Positions 1-62,908 of a stretch of DNA of 63,147 nt are shown in pieces. How positions within the stretch are numbered: the first letter of the stretch is position 1; each line of letters starts with the position of its first letter. The DNA comes from Firmicutes bacterium HGW-Firmicutes-14 (GTDB taxonomy: Bacteria; Bacillota; Thermincolia; Thermincolales; UBA2595): NCBI GenBank assembly GCA_002840275.1, contig PHAB01000024.1:1-63147 (forward strand). Direction: 5' to 3'. The translations under genes and the position numbers were made by a program. Under the pieces are notes generated by a model. The model saw only the letters and a list, made by a program, of their open reading frames with translations. It did no database searches and was not told where the DNA came from.

Positions 1-10
1 CATTTTTGGG

Positions 11-98
11 GAGCCCGATGCGGGAAATCTGCACGTCGGGTTCTGATTGGGGTTGTCAGCACAAGGGAAACTCCCCGAGGCTGGCTTCTACCAACCAT
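11..98 (+). ncRNA. Domain V/VI of an inner group II intron
   Basis: Positions 11-43 fold like a domain V. The lower stem is GAGCCCGA (11-18) with TCGGGTTC (36-43). A two-base CG bulge lies on the 3' side, then a short upper stem capped by a GAAA-containing loop. The AGC triad is at bases 2-4 of the helix. Positions 55-60 (GTCAGC) pair with 80-85 (GCTGGC) as a domain VI-like stem, followed by an adenosine at 90 that could be the branch point. The intron 3' end would fall at about 95-98. Directly after it the host RT frame resumes with TVNQSKL. Most of this inner intron lies to the left of the window. Confidence 0.65.
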
Positions 99-929
99 AC
101 GGTAAACCAGAGCAAGCTCGTCCAGATATTATCGGAAACGATTAAGGACGGACGAGTGATTTCGCTGATACATAAATTCCTGAGAGCAGGAATCATGGTT
201 AGCGGATTATTTGAGGACAGCCCGGAAGGCGTACCACAGGGTGGACCACTAAGTCCACTGCTAGGGAACATTATGTTGAACGAATGCGACCATGAACTGG
301 AAAAGCGGGGGCATCGCTTTGTACGCTATGCAGATGACCTGCTGATTTTCTGCAAAAGCAGAAAGGCAGCGCAGCGAACGCTGGATAATATTCTGCCATT
401 CATCGAGGGGAAACTGTTCCTCAAGGTAAATCGGGAGAAGACCAAAATGGCGCACGTCAACTATGTTAAATATCTGGGATATAGCTTTTACATCTACCGG
501 GGAGAAGGCCGACTAAGAATCCACCCGAAAAGCATTCAGAAGCTCAAGGATAAAATCCGGAAGGTTACAGGGCGCAGTAACGGGATGGGTATTGAGGAAC
601 GCAAAACCAGACTCAATCAAGTGATTAGAGGATGGGTGAACTACTTTAAACTGGCCGATGCGAAGAAGCTATTGCAAGGATTGGATGAATGGCTGAGAAG
701 TCGAATACGGATGGTGACCTGGAAACGATGGAAGAGAATCCGGACACGTTTTGAGAACCTCAAACGAGCAGGTCTCGACGAAGAGAAAGCCTGGATGTGG
801 GCAAACACGAGAAAGGGCTACTGGCGTACCGCCCATAGCCCAATACTCGCGGCAGCTCTATCCATAAGCCGGATAAAGCATGCCGGATATCCCAGTTTTA
901 TGGAATGTTATCTGCAAGGAAAAGTGTAA
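99..929 (+). CDS. Group II intron reverse transcriptase/maturase, C-terminal fragment
   Basis: This is the C-terminal three quarters of a group II intron-encoded protein (RT plus maturase), which splices its host intron and copies it during retrohoming. Visible blocks are TVNQSKL (end of RT motif A), the GVPQGGPLSPLLGNIML block, the catalytic YADD motif, and maturase domain X ending in the WRTAHSP region. There is no HNH endonuclease domain at the C terminus. The N-terminal RT blocks are missing because another intron's 3' end abuts codon TVNQ. The open frame continues upstream through the inner intron only by chance, so a start at position 6 is not a real start. Unless the inner intron is spliced out first, this copy cannot make a full enzyme. 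Confidence 0.85.
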   Translation, partial: TVNQSKLVQILSETIKDGRVISLIHKFLRAGIMVSGLFEDSPEGVPQGGPLSPLLGNIMLNECDHELEKRGHRFVRYADDLLIFCKSRKAAQRTLDNILPFIEGKLFLKVNREKTKMAHVNYVKYLGYSFYIYRGEGRLRIHPKSIQKLKDKIRKVTGRSNGMGIEERKTRLNQVIRGWVNYFKLADAKKLLQGLDEWLRSRIRMVTWKRWKRIRTRFENLKRAGLDEEKAWMWANTRKGYWRTAHSPILAAALSISRIKHAGYPSFMECYLQGKV

Positions 930-37080: not shown

Positions 37081-37092
37081 GTCTTTAAAGCA

Positions 37093-37210
37093 GGAAGGGC
37101 ATCTATATCCCTCCAAGACGGCTACAACTCAGCTTGTTACCCAATCGCGCTTACGCACGATTGGACAAGCGGACGTCAGACTCGTCTTGGAGGGATATAG
37201 ATGCCCTTCC
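37093..37210 (+). repeat. Long hairpin element A, perfect 28-bp arms
   Basis: Positions 37093-37120 are the exact reverse complement of 37183-37210. The 62-base interior can fold further: GCTTGT with ACAAGC and CCAATCG with CGATTGG. Its last 21 bases (37162-37182) are identical, in reverse complement, to 37374-37394 in element B. TTAAAGCA precedes the left arm. No protein is encoded; short open frames here are incidental. Confidence 0.85.
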
Positions 37211-37227
37211 TTGAAATCAACTACACA

Positions 37228-37260
37228 AAGAGTCCCCAGCTTTGCGGAGGGGCTTTTCTT
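37228..37260 (+). terminator. Terminator-like hairpin between elements A and B
   Basis: AGTCCCC (37231-37237) pairs with GGGGCT (37249-37254) with one bulged base, followed by CTTTTCTT. It lies in the 135-base spacer between the two long hairpins. The rest of the spacer shows nothing recognisable. Confidence 0.55.
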
Positions 37261-37345
37261 GTATAACGAAAACCAACCTAAAGGGGCAATCCTTGGGTAT
37301 TTCCGCAAAACTTTAAAAAGGGTGCCTGCCGGATTTAAAAACGTA

Positions 37346-37432
37346 GGAATGGCGGGTATGTCCTTCCATGATGAGTCTGACGTCCGCTTGTCCATGAGCG
37401 CAGCCATCTTGGAAGGACATACCCGCCATTCC
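37346..37432 (-). repeat. Long hairpin element B, inverted relative of A
   Basis: Arms 37346-37373 and 37405-37432 pair at 27 of 28 positions around a 31-base loop. Against element A the arms differ at eight positions, and seven of those differences are matched on both arms, so pairing is kept. The loop holds the shared 21-base segment in opposite orientation. TGCTTTAA follows the right arm, mirroring the TTAAAGCA before element A. Confidence 0.85.
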
Positions 37433-37526
37433 TGCTTTAAGTTAATAAGGTTCCCTTTTTTTATTTCTTGCATATTCCGGACAGCCCGGCCATAAATTTT
37501 TATATAAAAGGAAAGGAGGGGAAGAA

Positions 37527-62031: not shown

Positions 62032-62895
62032 CTATAAAGGGCTCTTTATATTAAAAAGATGGGGATTTCTTACCTTGGTATAGATATTTGTTGTAACAAT
62101 ACTCGCATGCCCCAATAGGTTCTGTATGTAACGGATATCAGTTCCTGCTTCTAACAAGTGGGTGGCAAAGCAATGCCGAAGTGTATGACAGGAAACAGTC
62201 TTTTGAATTCCGGCCTTTTCGACTGACTGTTTAAAGAACTTTTGGACGGCTCTGGTTGTATATTTTGTCCCTCTTTGTGTTGTGAACAGGTATTCTTTTG
62301 GTTGTTTCAAAGCTATTTGGCGGGACAACTGTACTTTTAGTTTTCTGGAAAAGACCGTTATTCGATCTTTATGACCCTTTCCACCCCTAACAAAAAGTGT
62401 GAGGTTATCAGGATTAATATCCTGAACCCGTAAGTTAACTAATTCTGAAACGCGCAATCCGGAAGCATACATCAATTGCATCATCAATCGATGAACTGGG
62501 TTTTGGACGGAATTGAAGATTTTGAGTACTTCCTGTTTTGTCATAACTACTGGAATCCGTTTGTTTGAGCGGGGGCGGGATATATCCTCCAAGTGAAATT
62601 CTTTATGAAAAATCTCTGCATAGAGGAATTTAAGAGCATTTATTGTCTGGTCAACGGTAACCGGGCTAAGGCCAATATTATCAATAAGATAATATAGATA
62701 ATCTCTGATAAGTGATGATGAAATGTTACGCGGATGCAATGGGTAAAAATAATTGATAAAGCTTTTAACGAGAGATGCATAGGTTTTAATGGTCTTAGTA
62801 CTATAATTACGAATTTTCATTTCTTTGCGGTATAAATCTAATAAGCTGCGGGCCCAGAGATAAGGTTGTCTGTTTTCTTTTAGAGTAATAATCAT
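62032..62895 (-). CDS. Tyrosine recombinase/integrase (XerC/D- or integron-like)
   Basis: A 287-residue recombinase. The N-terminal SAM-like domain is YSTKTIKTYASLVKSFINYF. Catalytic residues are R in ASGLRVSELV, K in RGGKGHKDR, the HTLRHCFATHLLEAG box, H in LGHASIVTTNIY and its tyrosine. It is visibly AT-rich compared with neighbours, unlike the window's XerD. ATG 62895 is the start, with GGGAGG seven bases upstream; TTG 62901 in frame is too close. It has its own promoter and adjacent repeats, consistent with horizontal acquisition. No gene cassettes or attachment site were identified. Confidence 0.88.
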   Translation of the reverse strand: MIITLKENRQPYLWARSLLDLYRKEMKIRNYSTKTIKTYASLVKSFINYFYPLHPRNISSSLIRDYLYYLIDNIGLSPVTVDQTINALKFLYAEIFHKEFHLEDISRPRSNKRIPVVMTKQEVLKIFNSVQNPVHRLMMQLMYASGLRVSELVNLRVQDINPDNLTLFVRGGKGHKDRITVFSRKLKVQLSRQIALKQPKEYLFTTQRGTKYTTRAVQKFFKQSVEKAGIQKTVSCHTLRHCFATHLLEAGTDIRYIQNLLGHASIVTTNIYTKVRNPHLFNIKSPL

Positions 62896-62908
62896 TGGCA
62901 AACCTCCC

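Follow-up and report, generated by a model that had tools for sequence, protein, structure and literature searches.

A dispersed, probably mobile family of palindromic repeats at gene ends in the Thermincola clade

The window analysed here, a stretch of 63,147 nucleotides from Firmicutes bacterium HGW-Firmicutes-14, contains two long convergent hairpins at positions 37085-37440, termed elements A and B, and raises the question of what kind of element they are. A preliminary description had offered three readings: a structured RNA, a recombination or replication substrate, or a non-autonomous mobile element. We consider A and B to be, probably, dispersed non-autonomous mobile palindromes of a YPAL/REP-like kind that are recognised as a folded DNA hairpin. 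They belong to a family that has spread across the whole Bacillota class around Thermincola. Its copies insert at gene 3' ends beside terminator hairpins, have persisted at some loci between genera, decay by deletion of their centre, have their central blocks replaced, and vary in their arms on both sides of a pair. Many copies and filled and empty sites thus speak for the mobile reading, and the structured-RNA reading is weakened because wobble intermediates are nearly absent and the two orientations relative to transcription are equally frequent.

Two copies of one hairpin family

The features of the locus are as follows.

37089-37215, plus strand: element A, a full-length family copy (model R1 positions 1-127; 134.5 bits, E 1e-28)
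37092-37120, plus strand: 5' arm of element A, perfect, 29 bp (inverted-repeat search)
37120-37141, plus strand: conserved 5' core motif of element A, GGCTACAACTCAGCTTGTTACC (family form GGCWACRAYTCAGNNNGTTACC; exact-match search)
37142-37162, plus strand: variable apical stem-loop of element A, between both core motifs (comparison of copies)
37163-37186, plus strand: conserved 3' core motif of element A, GGACAAGCGGACGTCAGACTCGTC, holding most of the 21-nt segment described earlier
37183-37211, plus strand: 3' arm of element A (inverted-repeat search)
37234-37249, minus strand: terminator-like hairpin adjoining element A, at chance level (1 found vs 0.8 expected)
37341-37436, minus strand: element B, a second copy in opposite orientation with an internal deletion and without the 5' core motif (65.4 bits)
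37370-37393, minus strand: conserved 3' core motif of element B, GGACAAGCGGACGTCAGACTCATC

Both hairpins are real and agree with the original description: the stem of A measures 29 bp without a mismatch, and that of B (37340-37373 with 37405-37438) is 91% complementary over 34 nt. Compared with dinucleotide shuffles, the folding z-scores are -14.4 for A and -9.9 for B, and since no shuffle folded equally well the two hairpins are not due to chance. The repeat search related A to B in inverted orientation (84% over 50 nt and 82% over 39 nt) and recovered the identical 21-nt loop segment TGGACAAGCGGACGTCAGACT, which lies in opposite orientation in the two elements; the arm differences between A and B are mostly paired changes, as had been noted. 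The 356 bases are indeed bounded by a 12-bp inverted repeat, but this does not represent the ends of a separate element: it consists of the outer arm ends of two oppositely oriented copies.

The 5' inner half of the core (CTACAACTCAGCTTGTTACCCAA...) is present in A and in nearly all other copies but missing from B, which is therefore a shortened copy, a deletion derivative. Its deletion is of the same kind as the losses of the hairpin centre seen in relatives (see below), and some other copies are shorter still, with about 70 nt. The 5' core motif of A has exact matches at 23 other places in the genome.

Across the family, a hairpin of ~125 bp is contained in an inserted unit of about 200 bp. 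On the GGC...CTC strand, the outer arm (~25-28 nt) leads into the conserved motif GGCWACRAYTCAG, then a short stem whose sequence is free, then GTTACC (or variants of it) and an apical part that differs from copy to copy, from short loops to branched hairpins of ~75 nt; on the far side follow the mirror image of the stem, CGGAYRTCAGACTC, which is conserved, and the mirror image of the arm. No ORF was seen flanked by solitary core halves; the 5' and 3' core motifs co-occur with few exceptions, which include B and a lone 5' half at C16:18757. Pairing of the flanks 100 nt or more beyond the hairpin derives mostly from gap-rich alignments, of which about 35-70 nt are trusted. At locus L166, the flanks form a long inverted duplicated sequence of ~130 nt per side beyond the element.

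Searched as DNA against the genome, the 356 bases matched at 36 places. A covariance model, proposed in the preliminary description as a check for further copies, was built from 17 copies and gave 81 matches, or ~51 distinct copies after removal of antisense matches; the outcome is the reverse of the lack of copies and of conservation named there as counting against the proposal. With the same model the family was found in 10/10 genomes of the class (6-54 matches per relative) and in 0/51 other genomes of the phylum. Scanning 84,980 species genomes for the core returned 27 places, all in Thermincola-clade MAGs named Thermincola or Bacillota that correspond to the same relatives; the viral contigs scanned gave no match. 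Its distribution is confined to the Thermincola clade, a single class of Bacillota, and we found no account of the family among the papers searched.

Two variants were observed besides the main form. A second subfamily in the same genome (L060, L116, L118-L123, L125-L127 and L043 (1257)) has a near-identical core, CAACGTCTCCGCCGGC...GGCCGGACGGATGACAGACTCGCC, with flanks often containing TTGACAAA, and looks like a more recent expansion. A short hairpin subtype of ~75 nt, GTAGATGTGTTCCG...GGAATACATCTAC, occurs at tens of places in genomes G004, G007 and G008 (an example is the right flank of L141); it seems to be a short derivative that has spread on its own.

Insertion, decay and persistence at gene ends

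According to simple ORF calls, 70 copies lie between convergent genes, 42 and 35 between tandem genes (in the two orientations) and 6 between divergent genes. Tandem copies are mostly located near the stop of the upstream gene, and there is no orientation preference relative to transcription (42 vs 35). The flanks often carry terminator-like hairpins, e.g. GTGTCCCATAAGTAAATGGGGCAC, followed by T-runs. We do not count such a hairpin as part of the element because one of them is also found as a plain terminator without it; in this genome, the consensus shared by the flanks of many copies is an ordinary terminator. One such terminator-like sequence, AAGGGGTGTCCCATAAATAAATGGGGCCCCCTTTTTTT, follows an ORF at L310 (G000:C57:3883) with no element nearby. 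No neighbouring gene recurs: 83 neighbour proteins belong to mixed ordinary families. SpoIIM is among the proteins neighbouring copies in the window.

Empty sites and target duplications had been suggested as a further check; the former were found at two clean sites, and no target duplication is evident at either. Both comparisons are within genus g5. At L171 (G007), an insertion of 205 bp separates two convergent terminator hairpins that adjoin each other in the empty L274 (G004), and at L174 (G007) about 198 bp lie between a stop codon and a terminator, with L262 and L263 (G004 and G008) being empty. The exact ends are uncertain, and as only these two insertions have clean boundaries, ends and target rule are not definable. 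At other loci the centre of the hairpin has been deleted while arms and flanks are kept (L136/L278, L080/L275/L276 and L167/L266), and L139 is a copy nested in an older copy, of which the right arm remains. These filled, empty and collapsed states fit insertion followed by typical palindrome decay.

Some copies have stayed in place for long periods. Flank comparison showed that different genera share some copy-bearing loci, where the flanks are mostly 67-76% identical, and that twin convergent pairs occupy one locus in G000, G004, G007 and G008. At orthologous loci the central block may be replaced with arms and flanks nearly unchanged, most clearly in L137 vs L155; further differences in central-block type separate L144 from L170 and L138 from L162. 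This fits exchange between copies, the alternative being re-insertion at a preferred site.

That many copies remain at orthologous sites in different genera would be just as compatible with a cellular function. The repeat might be a cis-acting gene-end element that is retained by selection, with mobility as no more than its origin: a bidirectional terminator, a 3'-end stabiliser, or a supercoiling or gyrase site like the BIMEs of E. coli. The marked preference for gene 3' ends and for convergent gene pairs and the orthologous copies across genera, including the twin convergent arrangement, would agree with this, and an element functioning in either orientation would be expected to show equal orientations. 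We nevertheless regard it as unlikely: at corresponding gene ends the element is missing from relatives or reduced to a collapsed remnant; separate terminator-like hairpins often adjoin copies and occur without them as well; and a terminator would not need the conserved inner motifs.

Covariation of the arms: DNA or RNA?

The earlier observation that pairing is kept, by selection or maintenance, while loop sequence is conserved holds on a large scale. In an alignment of 87 copies, 97.0% of 3702 cells are paired, vs 76.4% in shuffles and at most 51.3% with slid partners; two-sided change occurs at 37/43 pairs, in 796 cells. Because the alignment was fitted to the structure, the counts are biased in favour of it, yet both the slid and the shuffled controls fall far short of them. 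The two-sided changes lead nearly always from one Watson-Crick pair to another, and few wobble intermediates occur. A tally of the per-pair table by eye gave, with one conserved G.U pair set aside, only about 20 cells with a one-sided standard change. In one column pair of the inner stem, C-G is found in 121 copies, T-A in 42 and a wobble in 1; at outer arm positions 8-10 and 16-27, G.T accounts for 25 and A.C for 44 of 2400. Two-sided changes in the arms are thus about 40 times commoner than one-sided G.U intermediates, which argues for a process at the DNA level that keeps the palindromes perfect.

Could the hairpin be a structured RNA, either a small RNA or an RNA spread by reverse transcription, made from the strand GAGTCTGATGTCCG...GGTAACAAGCTGAAT? 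This alternative is kept alive because that strand consistently folds better as RNA (166/171 copies, by 9 kcal/mol on average), and at arm positions 11-15 the mismatches, mostly A.C on the GGC...CTC strand, are G.U on it (154 vs 4). Also in its favour is a reverse transcriptase at the start of the window:

6-929, plus strand: reverse transcriptase carrying a maturase domain of group II introns, situated at the end of the contig (Rfam: group II intron at 9-96)

Selection on an RNA helix should, however, leave G.U on one strand, and outside positions 11-15 G.U makes up about 1-2% on either strand despite highly variable pairs. The copies share ancestry and are not 166 independent cases, and common descent can spread such a strand bias; the conserved mismatch could equally mark a protein site, by analogy with the bulge of E. 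coli REP for TnpA-REP. Orientation relative to genes is neutral, and Rfam at gathering and E-value thresholds gave only meaningless long-hairpin matches on the elements. A functional RNA is therefore, in our assessment, less likely than a mobile DNA palindrome and on the whole improbable. More generally, strong covariation in bacterial intergenic repeats need not imply a functional RNA.

Mechanism, candidate enzymes and known systems

We return to the mobile palindrome. It is probably as folded DNA that the repeat spreads and inserts at the ends of genes, moved by a putative enzyme. A protein acting in trans would recognise one strand folded into an imperfect DNA hairpin, the conserved mismatched inner motifs serving as strand and identity marks and the stem sequence remaining free; the element would then be moved to gene ends, probably while terminator-like dyads are single-stranded, and the arms may be kept complementary by copying or repair inside the hairpin or by exchange among copies. 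The better RNA fold of one strand, the few clean insertion boundaries and the failure to link an enzyme weigh against this proposal. The DNA-level process that keeps the palindromes perfect can be tested by comparison alone, given that filled, collapsed and empty orthologous states coexist with modular exchange of the central block.

A partner protein of the hairpins, which the preliminary description had proposed to test for, was not found among the candidates considered. RAYT-type or Y1 transposases (PF01797) were rejected as being neither linked nor universal: they are absent from the carrier G008 (99% complete), were also not found in G001 (91%) and G003 (75%), and no recognisable copy lies beside the PF01797 loci tested. 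No autonomous copy with an ORF between two halves was seen, and the genes neighbouring the copies are ordinary. A pattern search for an insertion sequence sharing the flank consensus AGTGTCCCATAAGTAAATGGG returned only element flanks and one ordinary terminator, and for this reason AGTGTCCCATAAGTAAATGGG is not treated as a terminal repeat; this one flank consensus led to no parent insertion sequence sharing the element's ends, which are themselves not firmly defined. The last candidate is encoded in the window:

62032-62898, minus strand: tyrosine recombinase, XerA/integron-integrase-like (TIGR02249 242.9 bits, cut-off 265; NF040815 (XerA type) 235.2, passing)

Homologues occur in 10/10 class genomes (64-84% identical in four, two of them only partial). 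No element lies in the flanks examined, as a rule 1.5 kb, around 23 tyrosine-recombinase loci, and the enzyme is a weak candidate only. That the hairpins are attC-like folded recombination sites of this recombinase is very improbable: the resemblance to attC is a general one (a structure better conserved than the sequence, unpaired motifs that are conserved, a terminal structure that varies), and the homologues are present throughout, but the TIGR02249 score is below cut-off where the XerA-type model passes, such recombinases are widespread, and the elements flank ordinary chromosomal genes rather than forming a cassette array.

A bolder version of the mobile reading is that in a class-wide system an enzyme of a new kind, a recombinase or another, recognises the long folded DNA hairpin via its unpaired inner motifs and moves it to gene ends, with hairpin-templated copying keeping the arms identical and the central block being exchanged. 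We put this forward as a speculation with little chance of holding in full; if true, the family would be an attC/REP-like mobile element with a new kind of enzyme and the stem sequence left free.

Among known systems, MITEs and Correia-like elements are likewise short, non-autonomous, intergenic insertions with inverted repeats, but here the whole element is one hairpin and its ends are variable. The attC sites of integrons act as a folded single strand with variable stem sequence, conserved unpaired features and a variable terminal loop, all of which have counterparts in our family; unlike attC, its copies lie in both orientations among ordinary genes, with no cassette array and no linked integron integrase.

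With REP, BIME and REPIN sequences the family shares palindromes at gene ends, a conserved stem mismatch, oppositely oriented pairs and long inheritance, and TnpA-REP needs the bulge of REP to recognise the folded strand (PMC8266576). It differs in hairpin length (about 125 bp vs 20-40) and is not filed as a REP/REPIN member, no RAYT system being linked.

YPAL/RU-2 of Yersinia (~168 bp) has filled and empty sites and targets that adjoin dyad symmetry, with target duplications of 3-26 bp (PMC2229807), and is foldable with a high RNAz score (PMC2267715). In our family no duplication is evident at the two clean sites, there is no taxonomic overlap, the exact core occurring only in Thermincola-clade genomes, and the arms vary freely with pairing kept while the central block is exchanged between copies. 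The likeness is one of description, and with no target duplication seen the family is not filed as a YPAL/RU-2 member. Still, both are foldable, dispersed palindromes of similar size (here a hairpin of ~125 bp in about 51 copies) with filled and empty sites, L171 lying between two terminator hairpins and L174 beside one. The closest known kind is the small palindromic mobile repeat, above all YPAL/RU-2, with REP/BIME as the nearest parallel for placement and strand recognition.
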